Positions 32,416 to 39,070 of a stretch of DNA of 64,000 bases are shown here, in pieces. Under the pieces are notes generated by a model. That model worked only from the letters and a program-made list of their open reading frames with translations, had not been told where the DNA came from and searched no databases. The stretch is from Rhizobiales bacterium GAS188 (lineage in GTDB: Bacteria > Pseudomonadota > Alphaproteobacteria > Rhizobiales > Beijerinckiaceae). The first letter of the stretch is position 1, and the number at the start of each line of letters is the position of its first letter. Both the position numbers and the translations under genes were made by a program. The stretch spans positions 8,007,001-8,071,000 of the forward strand of contig FNSS01000001.1 of assembly GCA_900104855.1 (NCBI GenBank), in the 5' to 3' direction.

Positions 32416-32627
32416 GACCAAGTCCCGGAAACGCATTGCAAGGCGACGGCAGGTAGGGGCCGGCTGAGAATGGGACAAGGCCTGTGGCAACACTGTGACG
32501 GATGCCTGCCAGCCGCGCCCGGCGGGCGAAAGAGTCTCCGCCGCTCTTCCGATTTCCAGCTCTCTTTCCATTTTCATGCGCTCGCGCCATCTTGCGGGGC
32601 CGCCAACCCGGCCGGAGGCCTGCCGCA

Positions 32628-34235
32628 GTGACCATCCTCAAGCCTAAGCTCGATGCGAGCTCCCGCGATCTTGCAGCGAACGCCGCCGAATGGGGCAAGC
32701 TCGCAGCCGAGTTGCGCGAGCGACGCGCCGTGGTGGCGCAAGGCGGCTCCGCCAAGGCACGCGAGCGCCATGTGGGGCGCGGCAAGCTGCTGCCCCGCGA
32801 ACGCGTGATGCGGCTTCTCGATCCGGGATCGCCCTTCCTCGAGATCGGGCTTCTCGCCGCGAACGGCCTTTATGGCGACGACATCCACGCAGCCGGCATG
32901 ATCGCCGGCATCGGGCGCGTCGAGGGGCGCGAGGTGATGATCGTGTGCAACGATTCCACCATCAAGGGCGGCACCTATTACCCGATGACGGTGAAGAAGC
33001 ATTTGCGCGCCCAGGAAATCGCGCGCGAGAACCGCTTGCCTTGCATCTATCTCGTCGATTCGGGGGGCGCCAACCTGCCCCATCAGACGGAGGTGTTTCC
33101 CGACCGGGAGCATTTCGGCCGCATCTTCTACAACCAGGCCAATCTGTCCTCGTTCGGCATCCCGCAGATCGCCGTGGTGATGGGATCGTGCACGGCGGGC
33201 GGCGCCTATGTGCCGGCCATGTCGGACGAGACCATCATCGTGCGCAAGCAAGGCACCATCTTCCTAGCGGGCCCGCCTCTGGTGAAGGCCGCGACCGGCG
33301 AAGTGGTGTCGGCCGAGGAGCTCGGCGGCGCCGATGTGCATGCGCGCCAGTCGGGCGTCGCCGATCACTACGCGCTCGATGACGGGCACGCGCTGGCCAT
33401 CGCCCGACGCATCGTCGGCAATCTCAACAGCCGCAAGGAGATCGATATCGTCCTTGCCGAGCCGCGCGAGCCCTTGCATCCGAGCGAGGAGCTCGAGGCC
33501 GTCGTGCCGACCGACCTCAAGAAGCAATATGATCCGCGCGAGATCATCGCGCGCCTCGTCGACGGCTCGGAGTTCGACGAGTTCAAGGCGCTCTACGGGC
33601 AGACCCTGGTCACCGGCTTCGCCAGGCTGCATGGCGTCCCGGTCGGCATCATCGCCAATGCCGGCATCTTGTTCTCCGAAAGCGCCATGAAGGGAGCCCA
33701 TTTCATCGAGCTCTGCTGCCAGAGGCGCATCCCGCTGCTGTTCCTGCAGAACATCTCAGGCTTCATGGTGGGACGCCAATACGAGGCGGGCGGCATCGCC
33801 AAGGACGGGGCGAAGCTCGTCACTGCGGTCGCGACCGCGCGGGTGCCGAAGCTCACGCTGATCGTCGGCGGTTCTTTCGGGGCCGGCAATTACGGCATGT
33901 GCGGGCGCGCCTATCAGCCGCGCTTCCTGTTCATGTGGCCGAATGCCCGGATCTCGGTGATGGGCGGCGAGCAGGCCGCGAGCGTGCTCGCGACCGTGCG
34001 CCGCGACAATATCGAGGCCGACGGCAAGAGCTGGAGCGCGCTGGACGAGGCCGAGTTCAAGGCGCCGATCCGGGCGAGATATGAGGAAGAGGGCTCGCCC
34101 TATTACGCCACCGCGAGGCTGTGGGATGACGGCATCATCCTGCCTTCCGAAACCCGCCGCGTGCTGTCGCTTGCCCTCTCGGCCTGCCTCAACGCCCCGA
34201 TCGAGGAGACGAAATTCGGCGTGTTCCGGATGTGA
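32628..34235 (+). CDS. mccB: Methylcrotonyl-CoA carboxylase, carboxyltransferase (beta) subunit
   Basis: Transfers carboxyl from biotin to 3-methylcrotonyl-CoA in leucine degradation. The 535-residue crotonase-fold protein has both lobes. [20 protein letters not shown] and [20 protein letters not shown] are the N-terminal oxyanion regions, and [20 protein letters not shown] is the C-terminal one. The extended [14 protein letters not shown] form distinguishes MccB from propionyl-CoA carboxylase beta. The start is GTG 32628, with GGAGG 9 bases upstream; the frame opens earlier at 32502. The biotin subunit gene lies about 2.8 kb downstream, separated by an inserted segment. Confidence 0.93.
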
Positions 34236-34310
34236 TCGGGGCCTTGGCGAGGCGAGCGGGGCGTGCCTCTGATATAAAGCGGCAATCGACATTTCACTGG
34301 GGGCGATGCG

Positions 34311-35210
34311 ATGGCGGTAAGCGATCATGAGTTTGGTGGAGTATCGACGGATCTCAAACTGTCGCTTGTGGGGGGCTATCTAACCGCTTTTACCACCGCT
34401 CTGCGAGCGAGGTTCCAGCATCTTTGGTATATCGACGCATTCGCCGGGACTGGCGAACGCACTGTCCGTCATGCCGCCCAGGATGGTGGCTTGTTCGATT
34501 CGGCAACTGAGGAGCGAATTGAGCGTCACCGAGGTTCAGCTCGCATAGCGATAGATGTGAAGCCGCCGTTTGATCGGCTAATCTTCATGGACAAAAATCC
34601 GAAGCACTGCGAGGCACTGCGCGCCCTTCGATCGGCACAAATGGACCGCCAGATTGAGGTTCTTGAGGGCGACGCCAATGAAGGCATTAAGAGCTTACTC
34701 GTCGGAAGGCGGTGGGTATCAACACGAGCTGTAATGTTCCTCGACCCGTATGGCATGAGCGTCGATTGGGAAACGCTCGAAGCAATCCGCGCTACCCGCG
34801 CGATCGACGTTTGGTACCTGGTTTCGTTATCGGGGCTCTTTCGCCAAGCCGCGCGTAGGGCCAGCGCGGTAGATGAGTCGAAACGCGCGGCCCTTACCCG
34901 AATGCTCGGTACGGGCGATTGGGAGAGCGCTTGGTATCAGAAGGCGCCTACAACTACCTTATTCGGGGAGATCGACGGAGAGAGCTCCCGAATCGCAGAT
35001 GTTGAAAAGATGGAGGTATTCGTCTGGAATCGACTTAGGTCTCTCTTTCCGAGTGTTCTCAAGTCGCTCCGACTAAAGGACGGGCGCGGCATTCCTCAAT
35101 TTGCTTTGTTCTTCGCTATATCGAATCCCGAACCCAAGGCCATCGGACTCGCGACAAAGATTGCCAATCACATTCTCAATTCGGGAAGAGCGTCCCAAGT
35201 GCGGCCATGA
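34311..35210 (+). CDS. tcmP: TcmP-like protein with methyltransferase fold
   Basis: A 299-residue protein of the three-Cys-motif-partner type. The order of motifs is that of a class I SAM methyltransferase: YIDAFAGTGERTV (glycine-rich motif I, about residue 40), LIFMDKNPKHCEAL (acidic motif II, about 90), VLEGDANEG (about 120) and VMFLDPYGMSVDW (motif IV, DPYG in place of DPPY, about 144). A C-terminal region of ~120 residues may bind the partner or nucleic acid. It ends 43 bases inside the 3' end of the convergent partner gene. Codon use is AT-richer than its neighbours. Substrate unknown; methylation is inferred from fold only. Confidence 0.78.
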   Translation: MAVSDHEFGGVSTDLKLSLVGGYLTAFTTALRARFQHLWYIDAFAGTGERTVRHAAQDGGLFDSATEERIERHRGSARIAIDVKPPFDRLIFMDKNPKHCEALRALRSAQMDRQIEVLEGDANEGIKSLLVGRRWVSTRAVMFLDPYGMSVDWETLEAIRATRAIDVWYLVSLSGLFRQAARRASAVDESKRAALTRMLGTGDWESAWYQKAPTTTLFGEIDGESSRIADVEKMEVFVWNRLRSLFPSVLKSLRLKDGRGIPQFALFFAISNPEPKAIGLATKIANHILNSGRASQVRP

Positions 35211-35920
35211 TAGGAGCGACCGGTCGCCTTCTTGTTTCGACCACCCCACTGTTTGAAGAAGAATGCGGCGCCAGCAGGCCCACACAGCATATGAATTTCG
35301 CGGAGCCATGCTTCATCCATTGGACGCGCGCGCGGGCCAGACTCGCCTCCAACTATGGCCCAATGAATCCCTGTCAGATCAGCCCCGGCTACAGACCCGA
35401 TCAGTGGCTCGAACGAGACGAAGCGTATTTTAGCGGGCGTGAGTCGCAGGTCATCTAACCGCCTCAACACCTTCGAATCCTCCACGCTAGTACCGAGCCA
35501 GACGTTTGGGAGAACGGGAAATCTTGCATTGACCAGTATCTCACGCATACGTTCGGGCCGTTTCGTGAGAATTTGATAAGTGTGCTGCCGAGTGCCTCGC
35601 ATCACTGCCCACACACGCTCGATGAAATCGACTGGAACCCGTTCGTGGAATAGGTCTGACATCGAGTTCACAAATATTCTGCGTGGCCGCTTCCAGTTTG
35701 TGGGTACGGCGAGCGCGCGCTCGTCCAGCGTTACGCGGCCTGTCCAAATATGCCTGCCCCCGCTCTTGCGCGTTAGACCGCGATATTTTTCGATACCCAT
35801 AGCATCAAGCCTCGCAGCCATCCTCATTGCGTAGCAGTTCGTGCAGCCCGCAGTTAGGATCGTGCATCCCCCGACAGGATTCCACGTCGCGTCGGTCCAC
35901 TCGATTGAGGTTTCAGCCAT
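35168..35920 (-). CDS. Phage Gp37/Gp68-like (DUF5131) protein with CX6CX2C motif
   Basis: A 250-residue protein starting MAETSIEWTDATWNPVGGC. The three cysteines in GGCTILTAGCTNCYA form CX6CX2C, a possible iron-sulfur site like that of radical-SAM enzymes but with different spacing. Other conserved blocks are IFVNSMSDLFHERV, QHTYQILTKRPERM, NVWLGTSVED, WAIVGGESGPRARPM and AAFFFKQWGG, a pattern typical of PF07505. GGAGG sits 5 bases before ATG 35920; an in-frame ATG at 35932 is less likely. It faces the TcmP-like gene tail to tail with a 43-base overlap. The named partnership is established for the families; function is not. Confidence 0.85.
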   Translation of the reverse strand: MAETSIEWTDATWNPVGGCTILTAGCTNCYAMRMAARLDAMGIEKYRGLTRKSGGRHIWTGRVTLDERALAVPTNWKRPRRIFVNSMSDLFHERVPVDFIERVWAVMRGTRQHTYQILTKRPERMREILVNARFPVLPNVWLGTSVEDSKVLRRLDDLRLTPAKIRFVSFEPLIGSVAGADLTGIHWAIVGGESGPRARPMDEAWLREIHMLCGPAGAAFFFKQWGGRNKKATGRSYHGRTWDALPELRM

Positions 35921-35932
35921 GGGATCCTCCAA

Positions 35933-36246
35933 TGCCCGCGCAGGCTGACGAAATATGGTTAATGGGTCGGAAATCAGGCCTATTCACATTTTGTTCTATT
36001 TCGAGCCAAACCTCAAATCGTATACTTTCGCCGATGGGCTGCCCGGGACAAGAAGCAGCTCCAAGCGATGGGAACCGTTAGCCGGGCCAACAAGGCAGCT
36101 CCTTCTGGCGTTCAGAACTTTGGCGCTGCCCGCGCGCCTCGGGCTCGCCGAATTCCCGCCCTCGCTAGGCTCCAACGCGCCAAGTTTCGGCCCCGATCAT
36201 GCGCCATCTCGGTGCCGCGCGGGCGGTGCGAGACTCTGGAGCTGCA
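35933..36246. other. Gap between DUF5131 gene and cytochrome b561
   Basis: This 314-base stretch is AT-rich for its first ~120 bases and returns to GC-rich composition after about 36090. That change marks the likely right border of the insert. No homologous coding frame, tRNA remnant or hairpin is evident. Confidence 0.45.
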
Positions 36247-36899
36247 ATGAACGAGATGGCCCGCAACCTCGCCGCGCCCGAGGTCGATTCGCCCCAACTG
36301 GAATCGCCTAAGGTCGCTTCGGCGGAAGTCGCTGGGCCCCAAGTCACGCCTGCCCCGACGCTGCCCCGTTACACGCCACTCGCACAGGCGCTGCATTGGG
36401 TCACGGCGCTCCTCGCCTTCGCCATCTTGCCGATCGCCTGGGTGATGCAGACCATGAGCCGCAGCCCGCAGCGCGAAGCCCTCGTCACTATCCACAAATC
36501 GCTGGGCGTGACCATTCTGGCCCTCGTCGTGATCCGCATGCTCTGGCGGGCCGGCCATCCTGCGCCGGCAGCGTCGGGTCGGCATGGCGTGTTCCTGCGC
36601 ATCGCGGCCGAGGCCGGACATTGGCTCCTCTATGCGAGCTTCATCGTGATGCCGGTGAGCGGCTATGTCCTCTCGGCGGCAGGCGGCCATACGGTGCCGT
36701 TCTTCGGCCTCGTCGATTTGCCGGCACTGCCGGATAATCACGCCTCTCCGAGGCAGCGCGCTTCGTTCACAACGCCACGAGCTGGGCGGTCTACGCGCTC
36801 GTCGCCACTCATATCGGGGCTGCGGCCTGGCATGTCGCCGTGTTCCGCGACGGTTCGCTCGAGCGCATGCTGCCGGCGCAGGACACTGCCGGGCACTGA
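36247..36899 (+). pseudogene. Cytochrome b561 with a one-base frameshift
   Basis: Dihaem membrane cytochrome of the YodB/CybB type. The first ~165 residues are in frame: ALHWVTALLAFAILPIAWVM, VTIHKSLGVTILALVVIRML and AGHWLLYASFIVMPVSGYVL, with three of the haem-ligand histidines. After PALPDNHA the frame is wrong. Restoring one C near 36740 gives LSEAARFVHNATSWAVYALV, then ATHIGAAAWHVAVF with the fourth histidine, ending at TGA 36897-36899. GGAG precedes ATG 36247 by 7 bases. Either a real pseudogene or a sequencing error in a C run. Confidence 0.8.
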
Positions 36900-37030
36900 A
36901 ATGACCCGACACAACACCAGTTCCCCGTCAAGATCATGAGGTTGCGCTCTTGACGCGGCGCGCCCCTGTTGATGGGGTGCAAGACGGCTAGAATCCGTGC
37001 CGGCCGCTGCACGCCTCGAGGGATAAGTCG

Positions 37031-39070
37031 ATGTTCTCTTCGCTCCTCATCGCCAATCGCGGCGAGATCGCCTGTCGCGTCATCCGCACAGCGCGGCGCC
37101 TGGGCCTGCGCAGCATCGCGGTCTATTCGCAGGCCGATGCCCGCGCCCCGCATGTGAGCCTCGCCGACGAAGCCCATGCGATCGGGCCGGCGCCCGCGAG
37201 CGAGAGCTATCTGCGCGCCGACAAGATCATCGAGGTCGCGAGAGCCTCAGGCGCGCAAGCCATCCATCCGGGCTATGGCTTCCTCTCCGAAAATGCCGAA
37301 TTCGCCGAAGCCTGCGCCGAAGCCGGCATCGTCTTCGTCGGGCCGCCGGCCTCCGCCATCCGCGCCATGGGCCTCAAGGACGCAGCCAAGGCGCTCGCCG
37401 AGAAGGCCGGCGTGCCGGTGGTGCCGGGCTATCACGGGACGCGCCAGGAGCCGGATTTCCTGCGCCAGAAGGCTTACGAGACCGGCTATCCGGTGCTGAT
37501 CAAGGCGATCGCCGGCGGTGGCGGCAAGGGCATGCGGCGCGTCGATCGCCAGCAGGATTTCGACGCCGCGCTCGATTCGGCGCAGCGCGAGGCCAAGAGC
37601 TCCTTCGGCGATTCGCGCGTGCTGATCGAGAAATACATCCTCTCGCCGCGCCATATCGAGATGCAGGTGTTCGGCGACGCGCATGGCCATGTGGTGCATC
37701 TCTTCGAGCGCGATTGCTCGCTGCAGCGGCGCCATCAGAAGGTGATCGAGGAGGCGCCCGCCCCCGGCATGACGCCGGAGGTGCGCGCCGCCATGGGTCA
37801 GGCGGCCGTCGAGGCGGCACGCGCCGTGGGCTATGTCGGGGCCGGCACGGTCGAGTTCATCGCCGACGGGCGCGGTGCGCTCAGCGCCGACGGCTTCTAC
37901 TTCATGGAGATGAATACCCGCCTGCAAGTCGAGCATCCGGTGACCGAAGAGATCACCGGGCTCGATCTCGTCGAATGGCAATTGCGCGTCGCTTCCGGCG
38001 AGCCGCTTGCGTTCGACCAGGAGGATCTGTCGATCGGCGGCCATGCCGTCGAGGCGCGGCTTTATGCGGAAGACCCCGAAAAGGGTTTCCTGCCCTCGAC
38101 CGGCAGGCTGTTCGCCCTCAAGCTCCCCACAGGCGAAGGCGTTCGGGTCGATTCCGGCGTCGAGGAAGGTGGCGAGGTCACGCCCTTCTACGATCCGATG
38201 ATCGCCAAGATCATCGCCCATGGCGCCTCGCGTGAAGAGGCGCTCGAGCGGCTTTCGGGCGCGCTGGCGCATACGGTGGTGGCGGGGCCGAAATGCAATG
38301 TCGCCTTCCTCAAGGCGTTGGTCGATGCCGAGGAATTCCGCGAAGGCGCGGTCGATACCGGCTTCATCGAGCGCCAAGCGCAGCGTTTGGGCGCGGTCGA
38401 ACGGCCCCTCGACCCTGAGGCGGTGGCGGCCGGCGCCGCCCAGCTGCTGCGCATGAGCTACGACAAGGTCAATCCGTCGCTGCTGATCCGCGGGCGGCTG
38501 GGATCCCGCGAATGGCTCTACGATCCCTGGGGCGTGCGCCAAGGCTTCGAGTTCGCCGGCCGCCGGCACACCTTGCTGCCGGTGACGACCGAGGCCGGCC
38601 CGGCCAAACTCGATCTGTTCTTCGACGAGAACGGGCCAAGCCTGCGTGCGCCCGGACAAAAGCAGGAGAGCTGGCCGGAGATCGAATGGAACCCCAGCCG
38701 CAAGCTCGCCGAGCTCGGCGACCGCAGCGGCGTCGTGGTGCGGGCCGGCAACAAGGCGCTGGTGATCCGCCAGGGCCGGCAGACCGCCGTGTCGCTCGTC
38801 GATCCGCTCGATGTCGATCTCGAGCATATCGAGAGCGATAATGGGGGCCTCGTGACCTCGCCGATGCACGGCAAGCTGGTGGCGCTCCTGGTCAGCGAAG
38901 GCGAGGAGGTCGTGAAGGGCCAGAGGCTCGCCGTGGTCGAGGCCATGAAGATGGAGCATGCTCTGATCGCCCCGGTCGACGGCATCATCGCCGACATCGC
39001 GGCCGAGCCCGGGCAGCAAGTCGCCGAGGGGGCACGGCTGATGACGGTTACCCCGGCAGCCTCGGCTTGA
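37031..39070 (+). CDS. mccA: Methylcrotonyl-CoA carboxylase, biotin (alpha) subunit
   Basis: ATP-dependent carboxylation of its own biotin, partner of MccB. The 679 residues hold the biotin carboxylase domain (SLLIANRGEIACRVIRTARR at the start; ATP-grasp loop AIAGGGGKGMRRV near 155; MNTRLQVEHPVTEEITGLDL near 294), a BT-like middle region and the biotinyl domain with VEAMKMEHAL near residue 637, where the lysine carries biotin. Standard length for MccA. Downstream is a strong hairpin at 39123. Its pairing with mccB identifies the pathway, although other leucine genes are not nearby. Confidence 0.94.
   Translation: MFSSLLIANRGEIACRVIRTARRLGLRSIAVYSQADARAPHVSLADEAHAIGPAPASESYLRADKIIEVARASGAQAIHPGYGFLSENAEFAEACAEAGIVFVGPPASAIRAMGLKDAAKALAEKAGVPVVPGYHGTRQEPDFLRQKAYETGYPVLIKAIAGGGGKGMRRVDRQQDFDAALDSAQREAKSSFGDSRVLIEKYILSPRHIEMQVFGDAHGHVVHLFERDCSLQRRHQKVIEEAPAPGMTPEVRAAMGQAAVEAARAVGYVGAGTVEFIADGRGALSADGFYFMEMNTRLQVEHPVTEEITGLDLVEWQLRVASGEPLAFDQEDLSIGGHAVEARLYAEDPEKGFLPSTGRLFALKLPTGEGVRVDSGVEEGGEVTPFYDPMIAKIIAHGASREEALERLSGALAHTVVAGPKCNVAFLKALVDAEEFREGAVDTGFIERQAQRLGAVERPLDPEAVAAGAAQLLRMSYDKVNPSLLIRGRLGSREWLYDPWGVRQGFEFAGRRHTLLPVTTEAGPAKLDLFFDENGPSLRAPGQKQESWPEIEWNPSRKLAELGDRSGVVVRAGNKALVIRQGRQTAVSLVDPLDVDLEHIESDNGGLVTSPMHGKLVALLVSEGEEVVKGQRLAVVEAMKMEHALIAPVDGIIADIAAEPGQQVAEGARLMTVTPAASA

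Follow-up and report, generated by a model that had tools for sequence, protein, structure and literature searches.

Rhizobiales bacterium GAS188 carries, between mccB and mccA (the genes for the two subunits of methylcrotonyl-CoA carboxylase), a gene pair encoding a TcmP protein and a DUF5131 (Gp37/Gp68 family) protein, and this pair is a lineage-specific horizontal acquisition. It lies in a 64-kb stretch of DNA (G000:C1:8007001-8071000 of the 9.09-Mb genome), referred to here as the window, and its family membership and acquisition, taken jointly, are practically certain. A role of the pair in defense is probable. The full proposal, a mobile anti-phage module of the PDC-M41 type in which a nucleic-acid base is altered by two enzymes using S-adenosylmethionine (SAM), is tentative and slightly less likely than not.

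Gene content of the mccB-mccA interval

The initial annotation had placed the pair here from motifs and gene order, and the profile searches that it suggested bore this out. TcmP matched TIGR04474 with 183.3 bits (cut-off, 53; E 8.1e-54), and DUF5131 matched PF07505 with 316.4 bits (cut-off, 28.9; E 1.7e-94) along positions 1 to 243 of the 243 in the profile. The three TcmP motifs already noted were located at residues 42-48 (FAGTG, within DAFAGTG), 94-97 (DKNP) and 145-148 (DPYG), and the cysteines of the CX6CX2C motif of DUF5131 proved invariant in its family alignment. A broken cytochrome b561 gene and the overlap of the gene tails had gone unmentioned, and the pair is already listed in defense catalogs. 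The features of the interval are as follows.

32502-34235, + strand: mccB, left flank
34311-35210, + strand: tcmP, 299 aa (TcmP family; predicted RlmJ-like Rossmann methyltransferase fold; PDC-M41A)
34434-34454, + strand: TcmP motif I, DAFAGTG, residues 42-48 (D42, F44 and G46 invariant in 64/64 sequences)
34743-34754, + strand: TcmP motif IV, DPYG, residues 145-148 (D145 and P146 invariant in 64/64 sequences)
35168-35210, both strands: 3'-3' overlap of the tcmP and DUF5131 coding sequences, 43 nt, tail to tail
35168-35920, - strand: DUF5131 gene, ATG start preferred (Gp37/Gp68 family; predicted radical-SAM fold; CX6CX2C; PDC-M41B)
35834-35866, - strand: C19-X6-C26-X2-C29 of DUF5131, presumed [4Fe-4S] ligands (invariant in 63/63 sequences, the window's own protein included)
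36199-36939, + strand: cytochrome b561 open reading frame (ORF), frame broken near 36735 (PF01292, 1.6e-17)
37031-39070, + strand: mccA, right flank

The DUF5131 ORF extends to a TTG codon at 35932 (35168-35932, - strand), but the in-frame ATG at 35920 was taken as the start because a GGAGG-like site directly precedes it. Each of the two genes is present as a single copy in the genome. The cytochrome b561 gene lies inside the interval, yet it is no part of the module; its match covers positions 1 to 132 of the 179 in the PF01292 profile, and the remainder is read in a different frame, starting near 36735, which points either to damage of the gene or to an error in the sequence.

Acquisition of the pair

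The composition of the two genes sets them apart from the rest of the window. The GC content is 55.4% for tcmP and 56.6% for the DUF5131 gene, with third-position values (GC3) of 58.3% and 60.2%. The other 41 long ORFs average 65.5% (standard deviation [SD], 2.7) in GC and 78.6% (SD, 8.0) in GC3, and the pair takes the lowest and third-lowest GC3 ranks among the 43 ORFs of the window. The AT-richer segment that had been described as separating mccB from mccA therefore holds for the pair (about 34240-36100) but does not reach the b561 fragment, whose GC content of 67.1% is native.

Comparison with related genomes points to the same event. A search with the whole interval matched 57 of 60 genomes (our own included), and the relatives' matches listed cover only the end of mccB and the start of mccA, leaving the pair and b561 uncovered. 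The 3' stretch of mccB is 81 to 86% identical at the DNA level in 19 relatives, with matches that stop at or near its stop codon, and the start of mccA is 80 to 81% identical to that of two congeners. The gap from mccB to mccA is 134 nt in one of these two congeners and 398 nt in the other; in a third the junction match is cut by the end of the contig. Both families are absent from the three congeners searched, the opposite of close relatives all carrying a pair of native composition, the finding that would have told against the initial reading. In the host family as a whole (397 genomes, including our own), DUF5131 is found in 101 genomes and TcmP in 40.

The statement that mccB and mccA are normally neighbors holds only in part for these relatives. 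We scored 27 junctions in 26 relatives, based on 37 mccB rows among the matches listed and excluding partial or paralogous rows; 18 of them are shorter than 1 kb, 11 of these being 100 nt or less, and the other 9 span 1.6 to 6.1 kb. All six of the nine wide junctions that were inspected hold other ORFs, so a separated mccB and mccA is not rare in itself. In three relatives (L006, L013 and L019) the junction has unrelated small ORFs of 128 aa, 219 aa (Uma2-like by eye) and 168 aa, which indicates that the site tolerates cargo. In Chelativorans alearense (L162, 7992-11343) a TcmP-DUF5131 pair begins some 90 nt beyond the downstream end of an mccB homolog with 71% identity, in the orientation opposite to that of the window pair and with no mccA homolog within that 16.9-kb locus, apparently a second, independent landing beside mccB. 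The idea of mccB as an insertion hotspot was dropped, as this was one case in the 147 loci compared, some of which are present in both collections.

Among the loci found, the closest relative is that of Microvirga brassicacearum (TcmP, 71% identity; DUF5131, 73%). Against three relatives, pN ranges from 0.19 to 0.25 and pS, which is saturated, from 0.78 to 0.86, values as expected for genes under purifying selection. No tRNA genes were detected in the 64-kb window, the repeat scan revealed neither a duplication nor an inverted repeat where the AT-rich segment begins and ends, and the promoter and terminator scans gave no signal above that of shuffled sequences. Two imperfect 13-nt direct repeats (12/13 matching) span the segment, one linking the end of mccB with b561 (34216 and 36835) and the other linking tcmP with the sequence ahead of mccA (34323 and 36932), and were judged to be due to chance because they are inside genes or away from the segment ends.

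Predicted enzymes

(i) DUF5131. The predicted model of DUF5131 adopts a radical-SAM TIM-barrel-like fold, and the three cysteines expected of a radical-SAM protein are present, with a CX6CX2C spacing that differs from the canonical CX3CX2C. The same motif with identical spacing occurs in 30/30 loci of a wider family sample. From the model we predict a compact radical-SAM enzyme with a putative [4Fe-4S] cluster. The sequence, too, hints at this superfamily, in that DUF5131 partially matches the model "radical SAM mobile pair protein A" with 63.4 bits (2e-17), well under its cut-off of 355. The top fold match is spore photoproduct lyase, with viperin-like chains within 1 Z unit; as viperin and RlmN chains lie within about 1.5 Z units of the best matches, the match to the lyase is not specific. 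Profile searches recovered no solved relative of DUF5131 up to E 5 and, in Pfam at E 0.01, no family besides PF07505.

(ii) TcmP. The nearest solved fold to the TcmP model is that of RlmJ, an rRNA m6A methyltransferase with about 16% identity, and the leading matches (RlmJ, Trm1, RlmCD and RsmD) have small-molecule methyltransferases close behind them. A weak profile match sets the DPYG motif against the RlmJ motif DPPY, D145 and G148 are invariant in 25/25 sequences of a wider set, and a distant TcmP subgroup has DQxG in its place. We propose that TcmP is a putative Rossmann-fold methyltransferase of the RlmJ kind. A BTG match (E 0.0039, under the cut-off) and matches to FtsA were dismissed as chance. 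For neither TcmP nor DUF5131 used singly was there a solved structure related by sequence up to E 1. The predicted structures are in line with the earlier suggestion of one radical-SAM-like protein and one with a SAM-binding fold.

Architecture of the pair and variation of the partners

The two families had been said to travel together, and they do: in the host-family sample, 47 of 52 TcmP match rows are within 3 kb of DUF5131, the other five being partial or weak. The 47 paired rows comprise 36 co-directional pairs in the order DUF5131-TcmP, 6 in the order TcmP-DUF5131 and 5 convergent pairs; some rows of this sample are pieces of a single broken gene, so that genes are counted twice. The convergent arrangement is much more frequent in the subfamily of the window. 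Relatives of this TcmP subfamily are encoded by 426 stretches of one genome collection, and 76 of the 80 among these that are most similar to the window TcmP are convergent, a share that leans to the arrangement of the query. As the set was ranked by similarity, it speaks for conservation of the arrangement inside the subfamily and not for its generality. The genes overlap at their 3' ends in 72 of the 76 convergent loci, by 4 to 66 nt (median, 37). Among 67 IMG/VR loci, 60 contain both genes (50 convergent and 10 co-directional), 6 contain TcmP alone and 1 has neither by these profiles. Synechococcus phage Ssp-JY39 also has a convergent pair, with a 46-nt overlap and identities of 41% for TcmP and 74% for DUF5131.

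DUF5131 often occurs without a detected TcmP, as it does for 75 of 116 host-family matches that are 600 nt or longer, and 159 phage records have DUF5131 versus 5 with a TcmP of the window type, although this search misses long TcmPs. The long proteins are captured by the PADLOC candidate PDC-M30, which has DUF5131 in common with PDC-M41; the models for the long TcmP-type PDC-M30A and the short PDC-M41A cross-match, so their A-components are related. A three-gene form, in which a short TcmP faces a long TcmP followed by DUF5131 on the strand of the latter, was found on plasmids of S. meliloti, A. tumefaciens and R. rhizogenes (L167, L249 and L252) and at three genome loci (L149, L163 and L165), each of these having one DUF5131 and two TcmPs. 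Matches to PDC-M30A range from 6e-19 to 2e-20 for the long proteins of L149, L163, L165 and L167, and the long proteins of L249 and L252 are annotated as TcmP. Locus L132 has both TcmPs in another gene order, and L157 is cut by the end of its contig.

The partners diverge at different rates. In comparison with the window, identity is higher for DUF5131 than for TcmP at all 62 loci, and DUF5131 is likewise the better-conserved partner in 1946 of 1953 locus pairs, with median identities across locus pairs of 66.7% and 42.6%, respectively. A slow DUF5131 and a fast, sometimes duplicated TcmP suggest a constant chemistry coupled to a changeable recognition. On a Nostoc plasmid (L169, 4823-7080) TcmP is beside a "radical SAM protein" and the DUF5131 position has only a 68-aa ORF, and on a Natronosalvus plasmid (L251, 4885-6876) a "radical SAM protein" annotation likewise stands beside TcmP in place of DUF5131, possibly a swap of partners.

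Neighborhoods in viral contigs, plasmids and chromosomes

(i) Viral contigs and phages. Near the pair, the commonest match is phrog_4, a family of CI-type transcriptional repressors, found in 17 of 108 near neighbors from 48 viral-contig loci, and an S24 peptidase domain is present in 13 of the 108. In the far set (98 proteins, from 45 of these loci), phrog_4 is not among the 25 leading families and so has at most 2 matches. The near set was chosen by hand from 208 neighbors before identification (mostly the larger ones, with near-duplicate loci omitted) and the far set from 153 proteins; neighbors are the longest ORFs, with no gene caller, and the scanned sets are unrelated proteins pooled for scanning only. 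In two other sets of neighbors, a PADLOC scan of 134 of the 151 near proteins gave 123 families, against 41 in 123 far proteins, but these counts were set aside as a test because one methyltransferase matches many models and per-protein counts are lacking. In Gordonia phage Bosnia, DUF5131 and a PDC-M30A-type protein are convergent and lie between the integrase and the immunity repressor. In Gordonia phage BaxterFox a DUF5131 ORF and TcmP are convergent beside the repressor; this ORF (L083, 6948-7961, - strand) is open but unannotated, with a profile match of E 1e-104, and genes 39 to 41 are called on the opposite strand.

(ii) Plasmids. We compared 15 annotated plasmid regions, a hand selection from 12 TcmP-match and 404 DUF5131-match records, in which L257 and L259 have no annotated TcmP and L169 has no annotated DUF5131; two more regions (L167 and L168) came unannotated. 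Neighbors with clear defense labels were found in six of the 15 regions:

Nostoc plasmid: BREX neighbors
Leisingera plasmid: two Abi proteins
A. tumefaciens Yub001 plasmid: DUF1837 and helicase, Hachiman by PADLOC (HamA, 2.9e-97; HamB, E 0)
R. rhizogenes plasmid: type ISP restriction-modification (R-M)
Pseudochrobactrum plasmid: restriction endonuclease adjoining LexA and Cro/CI-type regulators
Roseibium plasmid: DNA methyltransferase and helicase

The other nine have no clear defense labels, although that of Deinococcus has a DNA methyltransferase. In another of the nine, from Phaeobacter piscinae (L260, 5986-9485), DUF5131, TcmP and dgt, a dGTP triphosphohydrolase gene, are consecutive on one strand of a plasmid; dGTPases are known anti-phage proteins. 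TcmP is also found on an archaeal plasmid.

(iii) Chromosomes and the S. meliloti locus. The chromosomal neighbors of the pair include housekeeping genes. In S. meliloti, an 845-aa ORF directly upstream of tcmP matches the PADLOC candidate PDC-S28 (E 0), and a published study lists this tcmP (SMa2243) beside the defense gene hna (PMC12445080).

Proposed function and alternatives

Both window proteins match the PADLOC models for PDC-M41 (M41A, 2e-83; M41B, 7.1e-103), a candidate system with the same components and gene adjacency. Two SAM-using folds, which almost always accompany each other where TcmP occurs and are placed beside repressors in viral contigs and beside defense genes on plasmids, fit a nucleic-acid-modifying anti-phage module. 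The anti-phage setting raised in the initial annotation is supported (by the PDC-M41 matches, the defense labels in 6/15 plasmid regions and the CI-type repressors), and phage blocking, base modification and a shared pathway are putative. In P. aeruginosa, PDC-M30 was predicted in 32 of 100 strains, and 68.8% of these 32 were phage resistant according to a published study (PMC10855318), a weak correlation.

In the mechanism that we propose, the DUF5131 cysteines would ligate a [4Fe-4S] cluster, at which cleavage of SAM would yield a 5'-deoxyadenosyl radical. TcmP would methylate a base at an exocyclic amine or at an atom close by, and the two SAM-dependent steps would jointly alter a base of a nucleic acid. 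The slow-evolving DUF5131 would provide the constant radical chemistry and the fast-evolving TcmP methylation and target recognition, the component that would be under arms-race pressure. The altered base would stop phage replication or translation. A pair in a prophage, often in the lysogeny region, may protect the lysogen from other phages, and a chromosomal pair may be retained for the same protective use.

A role in repair or protection is an unlikely alternative. Here DUF5131 would reverse damage to a base, much as thymine dimers are reversed by spore photoproduct lyase, or with TcmP would mark the DNA of a phage or plasmid to protect it from host nucleases, and the pair would be a gene set serving the element that sometimes settles in chromosomes. 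The best fold match of DUF5131 invites this reading, but viperin and RlmN are so close in Z score that it is unspecific, the CX6CX2C of DUF5131 differs from the CX3CX2C of the lyase, and the BREX, Abi, Hachiman, R-M and CI-type repressor neighbors better suit a cargo that protects the host.

Quite improbable, in our judgment, is a physiological or regulatory pair that modifies host RNA and is carried by mobile elements for purposes other than defense. RlmJ, Trm1, RlmCD and RsmD head the fold matches of TcmP and housekeeping genes are among the chromosomal neighbors, as such a role would have it; the patchy presence (DUF5131 in 101/397 genomes and TcmP in 40/397), the carriage by viral contigs and plasmids, the defense neighbors and the fast divergence of TcmP argue against it. 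A viperin-like route, with DUF5131 making a nucleotide chain terminator or signal and TcmP methylating or using the product, is very doubtful, since the leading folds of TcmP are rRNA and tRNA base methyltransferases, even with small-molecule methyltransferases close behind, and the Pfam search at E 0.01 gave nothing for DUF5131 beyond PF07505.

A bolder reading would be an R-M analog based on radical chemistry, in which N-methylation of a base by TcmP would mark "self" or prime a target and DUF5131 would abstract a hydrogen from that nucleic acid, lesioning or hypermodifying the phage copy. It is a long shot, and we know of no radical-SAM enzyme that acts as a nucleic-acid-damaging defense effector. 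If it is true, the plasmid forms with one DUF5131 and two divergent TcmPs would mean two specificities with one shared effector.

Relation to known systems and significance

The pair is already cataloged in NCBIfam, Pfam and PADLOC. Neither TIGR04474 nor PF07505, whose cut-offs the window proteins exceed, states a function in its name, and PADLOC entries of the PDC series are described in general as unvalidated candidates. PDC-M30 differs in its long TcmP-type protein, as the window pair has a short TcmP. Spore photoproduct lyase has 10 to 13% identity to DUF5131, which falls about 90 residues short of the solved chains in length and lacks the CX3CX2C motif of the lyase, and to our knowledge the lyase has no partner methyltransferase. 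Viperin and viperin-like enzymes have 6 to 12% identity, and the cysteine spacing of viperin differs from the CX6CX2C of DUF5131. RlmJ, the 23S rRNA A2030 N6-methyltransferase, shares about 16% identity with the window TcmP, which has DPYG instead of the catalytic DPPY; we know of no radical-SAM partner for this housekeeping enzyme.

Among the open-access PubMed Central (PMC) papers listed, we found no functional work on TcmP, DUF5131 or Gp37/Gp68, no phage assay or mechanism for the pair, no mention of PDC-M41 and no two-gene antiphage systems combining a radical-SAM protein and a methyltransferase; PDC-M30 is mentioned in two papers. The fold assignments, the position beside repressors, the overlap architecture and the DUF5131 shared by PDC-M30 and PDC-M41 were not met among these papers either. 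To the PADLOC entry we add the insertion site, the overlap, the neighbors in viral contigs, the forms with two TcmPs and the folds.

Horizontal transfer of an ordinary kind accounts for the insertion between the carboxylase genes. TcmP-DUF5131 pairs are widespread: 40 of 397 host-family genomes contain a TcmP match, and TcmPs are also carried by phages and plasmids, including one from an archaeon. The predicted folds and the position beside repressors lead to testable predictions, namely, an iron-sulfur cluster, a modified base and protection of lysogens. If it is true that the pair modifies a base by radical chemistry against phages, it would represent a new type of defense chemistry.
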